This document shows, piece after piece, positions 47,412-51,513 of a stretch of DNA of 64,000 nucleotides (the first letter of the stretch is position 1; every line of letters begins with the position of its first letter). The stretch spans positions 2,790,001 to 2,854,000 of the forward strand of contig NZ_CP090370.1 in NCBI RefSeq assembly GCF_021431965.1, read 5' to 3'. The translations under genes were made by a program, and so were the position numbers. The stretch comes from Erythrobacter sp. SDW2 (GTDB lineage: Bacteria; Pseudomonadota; Alphaproteobacteria; Sphingomonadales; Sphingomonadaceae). Below the pieces are notes generated by a model. It saw nothing but the letters and a program-made list of their open reading frames with translations. It did no database searches and had not been told where the DNA came from.

Positions 47412-48227
47412 CTAGACGTCGGCGTAGCTGGCCTTGCGCTTCTGCATCCCGGCTATCACGGCCTCGATCTGGTTGGGCTTGCGGATGACGGCGTCCTGCT
47501 CGACGCTTTCGGCCATCAGCAACTCGGCGCCGCTGGCATCATACATCATGTTCGTGATGCGCTTTGCCGCCTGCATGGCGTGGGGATTCCGGTCGGCGAT
47601 CACGCGCGCGAGATCGATCGCCTTGCCGAGCGGATCGTCGCTGACGTGCGTCGCAAGGCCCAGGGCTTGGGCTTCCTGGCCCGTAAATTCGCGATTGGTG
47701 TAGATCAGCTCGCGCAGCACATCGTCGCGCACCAGCCCGCGCCACAGCGGATAGCCGCCCATGTCCGGCACCAGCCCCCATTTCATCTCCATGATGGCCA
47801 TGCGAGTGGCGGGGTGGACCACGCGGATGTCGGCCCCGCTGGCGATCTGCAGCCCGCCGCCGAAGCACACGCCGTGGATGGCGGCGATCACCGGCACCTT
47901 GAGCTTGCGCCACTGGGTCGCGACCTGCTGCGCGCGGTTGGAATCGCCATGCGTACGGTCCGCCAGCGTGCCGCCGGCGGGGCTGTTGCCCGAATTGGCA
48001 TTGCCGAAGTTCGACAGGTCGAGCCCGGCGCAGAACGCCCGCCCCTCGCCCGAAAGCACCACCGCGCGCACGCCGGGCTGGGCCTGCAAGGCGTCGCCCG
48101 CCGCGATCATGGTTTCGAACATCGCAGCGTCGAGCGCGTTCATCTTGTCGGCGCGGATGAAGCGCACCTGCGCGACACCGTCATCCTCGAGCGTGATCGA
48201 GACGCGATCGTTGGTCTGGAAGTCCAT
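47412..48227 (-). CDS. Crotonase/enoyl-CoA hydratase family protein
   Basis: 271 residues from the ATG at 48227, preceded by AGGAGAG; a TTG six codons upstream is less likely. Typical ECH fold: FIRADKMNALDAAMFETMIAAG, SGEGRAFCAGLDLSNFG, IHGVCFGGGLQIASGADIRVVHPATRMAIMEMKWGLVPDMGG. The second catalytic acid expected in true hydratases is less clear, so it could be an isomerase or another crotonase. No pathway neighbours. Confidence 0.82.
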   Translation of the reverse strand: MDFQTNDRVSITLEDDGVAQVRFIRADKMNALDAAMFETMIAAGDALQAQPGVRAVVLSGEGRAFCAGLDLSNFGNANSGNSPAGGTLADRTHGDSNRAQQVATQWRKLKVPVIAAIHGVCFGGGLQIASGADIRVVHPATRMAIMEMKWGLVPDMGGYPLWRGLVRDDVLRELIYTNREFTGQEAQALGLATHVSDDPLGKAIDLARVIADRNPHAMQAAKRITNMMYDASGAELLMAESVEQDAVIRKPNQIEAVIAGMQKRKASYADV

Positions 48228-48301
48228 GGAAATTCTCTCCTGCAACTGCTTGTGCGGAAGAGTTGCCGATCAGGACTGGTCTGTCCAGCCTCTACCTAGG
48301 T

Positions 48302-48751
48302 TCAGGCGAGCATTCCCGCGGCAGCCATGCTGAAGAAGCGGGTGCGGGTGAAGATAAGGTGGTCGATCAGCGTCAGCTCCAGAGCCTCGCCCAGTTCCTG
48401 CAGCCGGCGGGTCGCCCGGATATCCTGCGGGCTGGGATGGCATTTGCCGGACAGGTGATTGTGCGCCATGATCAGGCCCCCTGCACCGATGGTCAGGGCG
48501 CGAAGAACCAGCGGTCGCGCCTTGAGCACCAGCTGGTGCTCGCTGCCGATGATCAGCGTTTCGTCATGCAGGTAGCGCTGCTCGCTATCGCAATAGACGA
48601 TGTGCAGGCGCTCTTCTGCTGCGGTATCGAACCGGCTATGCAGGTAGTTCAGGAACAGCGGGTCGGCCAGCGACGAGGGCATGCCCTGCAGCTTGTCGGC
48701 GATGACGCCGGCAAAGGCGCTCTCGGCCACGACGGGTGCCTGCATGCCCAT
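48302..48751 (-). CDS. JAB/RadC-like protein lacking the N-terminal domain
   Basis: 149 residues. The JAMM metal motif is HNHLSGKCHPSPQD (His97, His99, Ser107, Asp110) with the later TLIDHLIFT typical of RadC. RadC proteins of about 220 residues carry an N-terminal helix-hairpin-helix-like domain that is mostly absent here; only about 45 residues precede the domain. The role of RadC-type JAB domains is unsettled. Last gene of the four-gene leftward operon, starting one base after the membrane protein stop. Confidence 0.82.
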   Translation of the reverse strand: MGMQAPVVAESAFAGVIADKLQGMPSSLADPLFLNYLHSRFDTAAEERLHIVYCDSEQRYLHDETLIIGSEHQLVLKARPLVLRALTIGAGGLIMAHNHLSGKCHPSPQDIRATRRLQELGEALELTLIDHLIFTRTRFFSMAAAGMLA

Positions 48752-49248
48752 CACGAATACCTTGCCTGCCGCGTTGCCGGGGCGACGGGGCGCCAATCGC
48801 GATAGCGACCGAGAATGCCGGCCCGCTTGCCGTGCCGGGCGATCCCGATCGCGAGGATGATCAGCTGGAACCAGAACGGGATGGTGAAGAGCAGATAATA
48901 CGAAAGGCTCGACACCGGTTCCGCAACGCCCCTGACGATGTGCGAGGTAAAGGCCACCAGCTGCGCCGCGGCGATCGCCAGCGGATAGAACCGGTTGGCT
49001 CGCAGCGCGATCGTCACCAGCACGACCAGGCCCGCCGTATCGAGCGTGAAATGCCACAGGTCGAAATGGTGGAACGAGCGCGACGGGCCGAACCACGCAT
49101 GGTAGCCGAGTTCCGCCGCGATCATCCCCACCAGAGTGCCGGCGCAGGCCCGCTCCGGGCCGCCTCCCTTCCACAAGGCAGCTACCAGCAGCAGCACGGC
49201 AAAGGCGTTCTGGATCGAAGTCCTGTTGTCTAGGAACAGTTCGAACAT
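48751..49248 (-). CDS. Five-helix membrane protein of unknown function
   Basis: 165 residues from the ATG at 49248. Predicted helices run across AFAVLLLVAALW, GTLVGMIAAELGYHAWF, TAGLVVLVTIALRA, LAIAAAQLVAFTSHIV and YYLLFTIPFWFQLIILAIGIA. Histidines in YHAWFGPSRSFHHFDLWHF might bind metal. I recognise no named family. Third gene in the operon, 22 bases after the helical protein and overlapping the JAB gene start by one base. Confidence 0.75.
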   Translation of the reverse strand: MFELFLDNRTSIQNAFAVLLLVAALWKGGGPERACAGTLVGMIAAELGYHAWFGPSRSFHHFDLWHFTLDTAGLVVLVTIALRANRFYPLAIAAAQLVAFTSHIVRGVAEPVSSLSYYLLFTIPFWFQLIILAIGIARHGKRAGILGRYRDWRPVAPATRQARYS

Positions 49249-49270
49249 CGACCTTGCAGGCTCGCTCCCG

Positions 49271-49609
49271 TCAGGCAGTGACGGGAACGGCCGGCTCCTC
49301 GATCGCGCTCGGGGCAATATAGGTCTCGCCCTCTTCCTGGCCCGGCCCCATGTATTCCCGGCTGACCTTGTTCAGTTCCTCATGGACGCGCAGGAGGTTG
49401 GTCGACATGGCCAGGGCCTGCTGTTCGGCCTGCATCAGGCGCAGCATGGCCTTCTGCGCGGCATCGACACCGACTTCCGGGTTCTGGCGAGCCCTGAGAA
49501 TGACCTGCTTCAGCTTTGAGCAGGCGATCATGGCCTCGTCGGTGACGGCTTCCGCTTCGCGGATGTGCTTGCGGATCAGTTGGGCATCTTCAAGAATGCG
49601 TTCGGACAT
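49271..49609 (-). CDS. Small helical protein of unknown function
   Basis: 112 residues, mostly amphipathic helix from residue 1 to about 85, with Glu/Ala/Lys-rich stretches (IRKHIREAEAVTDEAMIACSKLKQVILRAR) and an acidic unstructured end. There is one cysteine. It resembles cytoplasmic adaptor or bundle proteins, but no family is recognised. It starts 14 bases after the stop of the HTH-membrane gene. Confidence 0.7.
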   Translation of the reverse strand: MSERILEDAQLIRKHIREAEAVTDEAMIACSKLKQVILRARQNPEVGVDAAQKAMLRLMQAEQQALAMSTNLLRVHEELNKVSREYMGPGQEEGETYIAPSAIEEPAVPVTA

Positions 49610-49623
49610 GACAGTGGCTCCGG

Positions 49624-50196
49624 TCAGAGAGGCGGCCTGCTCGTCTCCGCCTGGACAGCTTGTTCACGGGTTCCGAACTGTTTGCCGCCCGACGCCTCAC
49701 TCACGGAGAGTGCCGCCGTCACCACCAGAATGACCAATACGATGAACGCAAAGGCCAAACCGATGATGACGGCTAGGCGATAGAGGACAGCATGATCGCC
49801 GTCGAGCACCCCGGGGACGACCCGGGGCTCGTTTCTGACCATCCATGGCGCCTCGATCGCAAGTGGCGCCACATCGGCCAGGACGAACTCCCCGGGTGCG
49901 ACCCGGTCTTCTGGTTCGTCGATTCTTTGCCTTTGCGGCACTTCAGAATTTATCGATGCAGTTTTTCTGTAGGGTGCAGCTTCGCCCGCAGCCTCTGTTT
50001 CAGCCCTGTAGGAATCGCACAGGTCGTTGAGGTTGGAGACCTGGTAGACATCCTTAAGTGCACGGATATGCTGGTTTACCCGGCTTTCGGAAACGTCGAG
50101 TTCAGCCGCGATCAGCTTGATCGGCATCCGCCGGTCGAGCCTGACCAGAACATCCTTTTGCCTATCCGTAAGGGAACGGAAGCGGGGCGACCCCAT
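49624..50196 (-). CDS. Membrane-tethered LuxR-type HTH regulator
   Basis: 190 residues. The LuxR-type helix-turn-helix is at the N-terminus (residues 9-64: LTDRQKDVLVRLDRRMPIKLIAAELDVSESRVNQHIRALKD). A variable linker follows (65-137), then a single transmembrane helix at about 139-165 (LYRLAVIIGLAFAFIVLVILVV), and about 25 residues outside. This is the reverse of usual LuxR proteins, in which the HTH is C-terminal. It leads the four-gene operon. Whether the outer tail senses something or the regulator is cut free is not known. Confidence 0.82.
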   Translation of the reverse strand: MGSPRFRSLTDRQKDVLVRLDRRMPIKLIAAELDVSESRVNQHIRALKDVYQVSNLNDLCDSYRAETEAAGEAAPYRKTASINSEVPQRQRIDEPEDRVAPGEFVLADVAPLAIEAPWMVRNEPRVVPGVLDGDHAVLYRLAVIIGLAFAFIVLVILVVTAALSVSEASGGKQFGTREQAVQAETSRPPL

Positions 50197-50313
50197 GGCA
50201 GCACACTCCTAACTACAGCCTGTCGTTAAGCGAATTCCGCCGAATCGGCAAACGAATCGCTAACATTGAAGAGGCGGAACCGGGCCTAATCCGGTCCGCT
50301 GAGGCGCGCGCGG

Positions 50314-51513
50314 TCAGACGGCGCCGGCGTTGACGCCCTTGTTGGCGAGATAGCGCTTAATGTTGCGCGCCGCCTGGCGCAACCGCTGCTCATTCTCGAC
50401 CATGGCAATTCGGACGAAACCTTCACCCTCTTCGCCATAGCCAACGCCGGGCGCCACGGCGACTTTGGCGTGGGTCAGCAGTTCTTTGGAGAACTCCAGG
50501 CTGCCCATATGTGCCAGCGCCGGCGGTAGCGGGGCCCAGGCGAACATGCTGGCCGGGGGCGGCGGGATATCCCACCCGGCCCGGGCGAAGGATTCGACCA
50601 TCACATCGCGCCGCTTGTGGTAGATCAGCCGGTTCTCCTCGACCACGTCCTGCGGCCCGTTGAGCGCCGCGCAAGCCGCAGCCTGGATCGGGGTGAAGGC
50701 GCCGTAGTCGAGATAGCTTTTCACCCGCGTCATGGCGGCGATCAGCTGCTGATTGCCAACGGCAAAGCCCATCCGCCAGCCGGCCATGCTGTAGGTTTTC
50801 GACATGGAGGTAAACTCCACCGCTACGTCCTTCGCGCCCTTTACCTGCATGATCGAGGGGGTCGGCTTGCCGTCGAACCACAGCTCGGAATAGGCGAGGT
50901 CGGAAAGGATCCAGACCTGGTTCTCCTGCGCCCAGGCGACCAGCCGTTCGTAGAATGCCAGATCGACCGTCTCGGCCGTCGGGTTGGAGGGATAGTTGAC
51001 CACCAGCACGCTGGGCCGCGGGACGGTGAAGGCCATCGCCTTGTCGAGGCTGCGCCAGTAATTCTCGTCAGGCGTGGTCGGCACGCTGCGGATCGTCGCT
51101 CCGGCAATAATGAAGCCGAAGGTGTGGATCGGATAGCTCGGGTTCGGGGCCAGCACCACGTCGCCAGGCGCGGTGATCGCGGTGGCGAGGCTGGCGAGTC
51201 CTTCCTTCGAGCCCATGGTGACGACCACTTCGCGCTCCGGATCGAGCTCCACCCCGAAGCGGCGGGCATAGTAATTGGCCTGTGCCTTGCGCAGCCCGGG
51301 AATGCCCTTGGACTGCGAATAGCCATGTGCATCGGGCTTGGCCGCGACTTCGCACAGCTTGTCGATCACATGCTGCGGCGGCGGACGGTCGGGATTGCCC
51401 ATGCCGAGATCGATGATGTCCTCACCCGCCGATCGCGCCGCATGCCGCATCGAATTGACTTCTGCGATGACATAGGGTGGCAAGCGCTTGATGCGGTAGA
51501 AGTCGGTATTCAT
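50314..51513 (-). CDS. Class I aminotransferase, alanine/LL-DAP type
   Basis: 399 residues from the ATG at 51513, after an open frame with no good ribosome site. Fold-type I with DLGMGNPDRPPPQHVIDKL, VVNYPSNPTAETVDLAFYERLV and the PLP lysine in EFTSMSKTYSMAGWRMGFAVG (Lys239). Closest in style to the AlaC-type glutamate-pyruvate aminotransferases. It moves amino groups between glutamate and pyruvate or similar acids. Divergent from phaC. Confidence 0.88.
   Translation of the reverse strand: MNTDFYRIKRLPPYVIAEVNSMRHAARSAGEDIIDLGMGNPDRPPPQHVIDKLCEVAAKPDAHGYSQSKGIPGLRKAQANYYARRFGVELDPEREVVVTMGSKEGLASLATAITAPGDVVLAPNPSYPIHTFGFIIAGATIRSVPTTPDENYWRSLDKAMAFTVPRPSVLVVNYPSNPTAETVDLAFYERLVAWAQENQVWILSDLAYSELWFDGKPTPSIMQVKGAKDVAVEFTSMSKTYSMAGWRMGFAVGNQQLIAAMTRVKSYLDYGAFTPIQAAACAALNGPQDVVEENRLIYHKRRDVMVESFARAGWDIPPPPASMFAWAPLPPALAHMGSLEFSKELLTHAKVAVAPGVGYGEEGEGFVRIAMVENEQRLRQAARNIKRYLANKGVNAGAV

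Follow-up and report, generated by a model that had tools for sequence, protein, structure and literature searches.

A conserved HTH–HEL–MEM–JAB gene cassette of sphingomonads that also occurs on plasmids and in phages: a candidate membrane-to-transcription module

The subject of this analysis is a cluster of four genes at positions 48302–50196 of a 64,000-nucleotide stretch of DNA from Erythrobacter sp. SDW2 (contig NZ_CP090370.1, positions 2,790,001–2,854,000; hereafter the window). An initial annotation, made from the letters of the window, had described four genes running in one direction with gaps of 14, 22 and −1 bases, and the coordinates of the open reading frames bear this out. All four lie on the minus strand, in the order HTH (helix–turn–helix protein; 49624–50196, 190 residues), HEL (helical protein; 49271–49609, 112 residues), MEM (membrane protein; 48751–49248, 165 residues) and JAB (48302–48751, 149 residues from the ATG at 48751). 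A pattern scan of the minus strand of 47900–50700 found no terminator-like or sigma-70-like promoter site, and cotranscription of the four genes is plausible. The cassette is real and long conserved, and occurs in sphingomonads, on some of their plasmids and in some phages.

The HTH protein begins with a domain of the LuxR/sigma-region-4 type at about residues 7–59 (Pfam Sigma70_r4 at 1.5e-5, just over the cut-off, and GerE at 4.7e-5, just under it), followed by a linker, a single C-terminal transmembrane (TM) helix at residues 141–159 and a short tail. This agrees with the earlier description of a DNA-binding protein anchored by one C-terminal helix. All 61 cassette HTH proteins that were compared have a hydrophobic segment (52 with one and nine with two predicted), and just 4–31 residues follow the last segment. 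The only matches of HTH in PADLOC 2023 are weak ones to CARF/CasR models. HEL is modelled as a soluble helical hairpin (helices at residues 3–41 and 48–87; AlphaFold2 mean pLDDT of 88.6) in which E20 and H76 are invariant among 58 sequences; its matches to PDB sequences are coiled-coil-like, with a best E value of 0.0055.

The AlphaFold2 model of MEM (mean pLDDT of 94.4) consists of TM helices without a soluble domain, with five long helices and a short N-terminal one. A simple hydropathy count over MEM relatives gives 2–7 segments, mostly four, and the five-helix assignment therefore rests on the model. The five helices had been proposed earlier together with a His-rich loop; the former are found in the model, whereas the latter is not a family feature, as the loops of the congeners lack most of these His residues. 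Among 58 sequences, G28 and E32 are invariant and D70, R86, H103 and Y117 are nearly so. From the helix limits and the positive-inside rule we infer an N-out, C-in topology, which would bring D70, H103 and Y117 close to the outer side of the membrane and put E32 and R86 at its inner face. With HEL and MEM as queries, Pfam, NCBIfam, PADLOC and PHROGs returned no match that passed a curated cut-off or had a convincing E value, and HEL, MEM and JAB had no defence-model match in PADLOC 2023 or PHROGs. Two leads for MEM were set aside. One NCBIfam match, to a rhombosortase model, reached 18.7 bits where the cut-off is 84. The VIA-align rows are, on our own reading, unrelated helical bundles, of which the best (Z of 10.0, 3.0 Å over 127 residues) is a designed binder, and such matches carry little weight for helical models.

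JAB is a RadC-like JAB domain alone. PF04002 is the sole Pfam model that it matches above cut-off (4.9e-28; 97.9 bits against a gathering cut-off of 22.1), the N-terminal RadC domain is absent, and the protein falls under the RadC family cut-offs (TIGR00608, 92.2 against 133.85 bits; PRK00024, 90.2 against 180 bits). The JAMM residues E48, H98, H100, S108 and D111 are intact, as had been noted at the outset along with the missing N-terminal domain (residue numbers follow P0004, which starts one codon ahead of the ATG). Scored as E-xn-HxH-x7-S-x2-D in 50 aligned cassette JABs, the motif retains E, H, H and D in all 50 and S in 48, with C in the other two. Another Glu, that of the PREVF motif, is typical of RadC; it is kept in 11 of the 50 and replaced by Pro81 in the window JAB. 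When this Glu was first taken as catalytic the site appeared to be degenerate, a reading that was rejected because the match to structure 2QLC and the AfJAMM motif (E22, H67, H69, S77 and D80, with their roles as set out in the motif description within PMC300881) both point to the invariant E48 as the equivalent of the catalytic Glu. A separate, longer radC homologue lies elsewhere in the genome (1475230–1475580 in genome coordinates; 33% identity over the JAB part, in an open frame of 406 residues), so that the window JAB is an extra one. Bacterial ubiquitin-like conjugation operons combine a JAB with ubiquitin-like, E1 and E2 partners; no match to such partners was found among the four operon products, which were the genes scanned.

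To place the cassette among relatives, each protein was searched against 199 genomes of the same family and 60 stretches around matches were then fetched, giving 61 loci including the window. With iterated profiles, all 61 loci hold MEM and HTH and 60 hold HEL, and the genes that are present keep the order HTH–HEL–MEM–(JAB) on one strand (the counts keep the best match per locus, and six HTH matches remote from any MEM were dropped). These loci were picked around matches, and a profile census is the fairer figure. At E ≤ 1e-5, MEM occurs in 115 and HEL in 106 of the 199 genomes; MEM lies directly downstream on the same strand for at least 127 of 137 HEL genes, and HEL directly upstream for 127 of 150 MEM genes among the matches listed. 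The ten HEL exceptions comprise one (G116) on a different contig from its MEM, five (G013, G064, G095, G157 and G187) in genomes with MEM matches beyond those listed, and four true exceptions in genus g45 (G045, G125 twice and G183), where HTH and MEM occur without an intervening HEL and HEL lies elsewhere. Five of the 23 MEM exceptions among the matches listed are later tandem copies and three belong to g45 genomes. Again among the matches listed, 30 of 112 genomes have more than one MEM row. Extra MEM genes are present at L161, L163 and L169; at L163, four tandem MEM genes follow one HTH–HEL pair, and a second HTH with a JAB lies about 6 kb downstream.

The four-gene grouping is beyond chance, because of this HEL–MEM adjacency and because dN/dS among four congeners is 0.08–0.44 where the synonymous divergence (dS) is unsaturated, as under purifying selection. 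Order and pairing thus hold among sphingomonads, and independent scattering of the four genes, under which the grouping would be accidental, is ruled out by the 61 loci and the adjacency count. The divergences of the four proteins are correlated (r of 0.52–0.91 over the 49 loci with all four; the highest values in 500 permutations are 0.15–0.21), and among congeners MEM diverges faster than HTH and HEL. Common chromosomal neighbours surround the cassette at 26 of the 61 loci, in 11 genera, and include PHA-synthase-, phasin- and enoyl-CoA-hydratase-like genes by our own reading of the sequences; the remaining loci are elsewhere. Outside the family the module is rare: it was found in four of 240 genomes of the class, three of which belong to this family (the window's included) and one (G260) to another. 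The G260 locus (L198) has two HEL genes and MEM and no recognized HTH or JAB. The product of the gene after MEM at that locus resembles a LexA/S24-type regulator, the S24 label being our own reading.

The set of four is extended in many relatives by a fifth gene. A winged-helix gene comes next after the cassette in 37 of the 61 loci, and in the group with fixed neighbours its product is of the OmpR C-terminal type (PF00486, two of two scanned). JAB and a MarR-like profile share one open frame at four other chromosomal loci (L164, L175, L176 and L177) and five plasmid loci (L182, L185, L188, L191 and L192), a fusion that suggests a role for JAB on the DNA side. The winged-helix gene is absent at the window locus and in the congeners L123 and L124, and present in a third congener, L122. 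The best winged-helix matches elsewhere in the window genome are 29–34% identical stretches in open frames of 232–282 residues, one with an internal stop, and by their length these look like full response regulators.

Plasmid records matching MEM (15 with the window MEM and 21 with that of plasmid pMC4) all come from sphingomonads. Sixteen plasmid regions were viewed, and conjugation genes are nearby in five of the 15 that are annotated. In pMC4 and pBSY18_2 the cassette lies between a divergent trb operon and mobF, and in Spl, MBES04p1 and MBES04p2 a virB-type operon follows it closely downstream; judged by their layout, the five represent two plasmid lineages and not five independent cases. 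On pHR1a (L204), the annotated HTH ahead of HEL–MEM has 90 residues and is followed by a separate 73-residue hypothetical protein, and the tether may be split off there. HEL, MEM and the winged helix also occur together in nine phage loci, namely seven viral contigs (L207–L213), plasmid YK209 unnamed4, in a stretch that resembles a prophage (L202), and the phage record MT835592. JAB was not found in any of the nine; HTH is present in eight, MT835592 being cut on that side. A CI-like repressor gene lies directly upstream on the same strand in all eight phage loci that have that side, and a YdaS/Cro-like gene diverges from it (Pfam names for these genes were obtained for L213 and L202). Tail genes lie downstream on the opposite strand in L213 and, as annotated, in L202. 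Neither the 61 chromosomal loci nor stretches L182–L198 (plasmid and other) yielded these phage CI and Cro-like proteins. Searches of viral contigs gave no relative when the query was the pMC4 MEM or P0002, and P0002 gave no match among phages.

Within the HTH gene, a 156-nucleotide stretch coding for the linker and the start of the TM helix (49765–49920, minus strand) is under strong synonymous constraint. Among congeners the dS of HTH is 0.39–0.49 compared with 0.83–3.3 for HEL, MEM and JAB; eight neighbouring gene clusters have values of 0.45–1.75, of which cluster 4 (0.45–0.75) is nearly as low as HTH. The drop peaks where the linker ends and the helix starts: codons 121–144 have a dS of 0.00–0.11 compared with 0.56–2.65 for codons 1–24. 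Fourfold-degenerate sites identical among congeners number 171/187 in the linker, compared with 225/306 in the remainder of HTH and 357/830 in HEL, MEM and JAB combined. Over seven genera the linker counts are 171/187, 79/91, 50/66, 73/80, 48/63, 34/64 and 29/30, compared with fractions of 0.42–0.74 for the rest of HTH and 0.32–0.50 for the other three genes. The difference is small in genus g41 (0.53 against 0.42) and vanishes in an eighth genus, g47, where the linker has the same share (17/25) as the rest of HTH. An antisense gene was considered as the cause of the constraint and rejected for one of the overlapping frames, the codon-aligned plus-strand frame of the open reading frame at 49792–50229: judged by eye, L122, L126 and L127 each have a stop in it, and its start is missing from L125 and L131.

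The stretch also folds better than its synonymous shuffles, with a z score of −3.3 in the window. All 26 copies at the fixed place fold better than the shuffle mean (mean z of −2.45; 21 at or below the 5% level with 60 shuffles), and the 35 other copies do so less well (mean z of −0.87; seven at the 5% level). The region was picked for looking structured in congeners, so that the congener z scores are not independent and the other genera come nearer to a test. Control windows gave mean z scores of 0.14 for the crotonase-like gene (41 windows), −0.14 for JAB (16), −0.06 for HEL (16), −0.92 for MEM (24) and −1.52 for the start of HTH (eight), with single windows down to −4.83. In two separate subgroups RNAalifold pairs the same two arms, which enclose an inner hairpin, and predicts a third hairpin after them, with the register off by one to two bases. 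None of the 500 shuffles of any of the three alignments reaches its number of paired cells or its covariation score. The count of pairs changed on both sides is reached by one of 500 shuffles in the joint alignment and by 225 and 69 of 500 in the subgroups, where three-column slides also give similar numbers of double changes; the covariation support for the fold is therefore moderate. A covariance model finds 46 places in 43 of the 199 genomes, 33 in cassette HTH genes and 13 weak ones elsewhere (about 30 bits or less). These matches are not independent proof of the fold, as the model largely tracks coding homology. A 30-base pattern from the stretch (two positions open) occurs in three contigs of the genome collection, read as the same gene in G016, G054 and G176, and a search of Rfam gave nothing near a gathering score. 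That the stretch sets the timing of HTH synthesis or membrane insertion is a guess, and the constraint forms a separate, directly testable puzzle.

We interpret the cassette as an input module that carries a membrane signal to transcription, and give this interpretation a probability of about one half. In its favour are the constant gene order and HEL–MEM adjacency, the correlated divergence of the four proteins, the hydrophobic anchor of every HTH protein compared, the winged-helix gene next to or fused with JAB, the intact JAMM motif, the plasmid and phage settings and the purifying selection. MEM, with its five TM helices and conserved polar residues, would be the sensor, and the hairpin HEL may relay its state. 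HTH, LuxR-type and held at the membrane by one helix, would bind DNA and provide the first output. In many copies the winged helix would be a second DNA-binding protein partnered with JAB, sometimes in one polypeptide, and JAB probably sets or clears this regulator by proteolysis, with either the regulator itself or a partner as its target. No winged-helix gene follows the cassette in the window, and the tethered HTH would therefore be the only output left there. Copies that adjoin transfer genes on plasmids or follow a CI-like repressor gene in phages may tie the decision to move to a membrane signal. The earlier proposal of a sensing or processing pathway, with a membrane partner for JAB, is retained in part: sensing is a fair suggestion, whereas the fusion partner of JAB is a winged helix and not a membrane protein, and JAB is dispensable.

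Several observations weigh against this interpretation. JAB is present in 49 and missing in 12 of the 61 loci, a share that is biased upward by a third batch of loci picked for MEM, mostly with JAB, and in which L163 is scored as JAB-less though it has a JAB, next to a second HTH, about 6 kb away. No HEL was found in the HTH–MEM interval of L157 (genus g45), although the same genome has a good match elsewhere, nor was one found on plasmids Spl, MBES04p1 and MBES04p2, so that the relay is not always there. Foldseek returned no match to the MEM model at E ≤ 0.001, and the protein thus has no recognizable fold relative. Outside the fixed-copy group the winged helix is of a MarR-like type (two scanned), and its Pfam matches are weak and under curated cut-offs. 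In ten of the 15 annotated plasmid regions no conjugation genes lie within the stretch viewed; part of the correlated divergence is shared species history; and phage exclusion genes, too, occupy the position behind a CI gene.

A wider form of the interpretation would make the cassette a new class of transmembrane signalling, with a five-TM receptor acting through a cytosolic hairpin on a tethered LuxR-type regulator, and with JAB and the winged helix as a second output that is set by proteolysis. Phages and conjugative plasmids would have adopted the module to make lysogeny or transfer depend on a membrane signal, and in the chromosomal copies an RNA structure in the regulator's coding sequence would control its synthesis or membrane insertion. 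Taken whole, this is tentative and on balance doubtful. If signal input to transcription is the right reading, the sphingomonads, which are common in soil and water, would own a membrane-to-DNA module common to cells, plasmids and phages, a JAB metalloprotease would gain a place in bacterial gene control, and the triggers of transfer and lysogeny in these bacteria would become testable.

Among described kinds the co-component system (Kinch et al., 2022; PMC9214523) comes closest, and two of its features fail in the cassette. Both have a cytoplasmic DNA-binding domain on one TM helix, a membrane partner encoded alongside and a fast-evolving cassette. In co-component systems (VtrA/VtrC, ToxR/ToxS) the regulator pairs through a periplasmic domain with its partner, which has a lipocalin-like sensor domain, whereas the cassette HTH is of the LuxR/sigma4 type without a periplasmic domain (a tail of 4–31 residues) and its five-TM partner lacks a soluble, lipocalin-like domain; the cassette further adds a helical hairpin, JAB and the winged helix. 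With RadC (PF04002; structure 2QLC) the cassette JAB shares the domain by sequence and the JAMM residues, and it differs in lacking the N-terminal domain, in scoring under the family cut-offs and in the replaced PREVF-type Glu. Searches of the open-access full-text literature found no account of an HTH–HEL–MEM–JAB cassette, which fits the initial view that no such system was known.

Three other explanations have to be weighed against signal input to transcription. Lambda RexA–RexB, a membrane protein and a DNA-binding-type partner, is encoded directly behind the CI gene, and the phage cassettes lie behind a CI-like gene in eight of eight loci. The cassette could likewise be an exclusion or abortive-infection module. 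MEM would then act as an ion channel or in surface exclusion, under the gating control of the DNA-binding and helical proteins, and would protect the element that carries it against related phages or plasmids. The copies adjoining trb/virB and mobF on five plasmids, the multiple MEM rows per genome among the matches listed and the faster divergence of MEM among congeners are consistent with this. MEM, HEL and JAB, however, match no defence model in PADLOC or PHROGs, family scans gave no RexAB match, and the cassette has three to five components, one or two of them further DNA-binding proteins. One copy also occupies a single chromosomal place across 11 genera, which we take to be unusual for defence genes. 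This explanation is unlikely, and it stays alive because the CI-gene and conjugation-gene settings suit exclusion genes equally well.

The peptidase–repressor pairs ImmA–ImmR and IrrE–DdrO couple a metallopeptidase to a DNA-binding protein on mobile elements, either as a pair or as a fusion. By analogy, JAB could be the centre of a switch and free promoters by cleaving either the winged helix or the membrane-anchored HTH, an idea encouraged by the fused or adjoining winged helix and by the intact JAMM motif in 50 of 50 JABs. The cassette nevertheless has a JAB/JAMM enzyme in place of the ImmA/IrrE-type peptidase (PF06114), a winged helix in place of an XRE domain and an added membrane arm; JAB is missing from 12 of 61 cassettes and was not found in the nine phage loci, and the window has JAB without a winged-helix gene after it. 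We regard a switch of this kind as quite unlikely. Least probable, and improbable in our view, is a horizontally spread cluster with some other membrane or stress function whose DNA-binding proteins regulate only themselves. It would suit the diverse contexts and a candidate operator upstream of HTH (50241–50259, minus strand), the direct repeat CGATTCG-TTTGC-CGATTCG, which within three mismatches has one site, an exact one, in the 2.92-Mb genome (a backwards control pattern also gives one match). The fixed place in 11 genera, the purifying selection and the synonymous constraint in HTH speak against such a cluster, none of them decisively.

Further observations concern individual loci. Repeats resembling that at 50241–50259 were spotted by eye in the congeners and in genus g37. 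AbrB-type, VapC or nucleotidyltransferase genes adjoin the cassette on three plasmids (L182, L188 and L203), and on a Sphingopyxis plasmid (L186) a JAB-less cassette lies beside a lasso-peptide cluster with an isopeptidase. A DUF2939 protein follows the cassette in L202 (annotated) and L208 (Pfam). The phage record MT835592.1 (L206), which is labelled as from human faeces, carries a sphingomonad-type cassette at its end.

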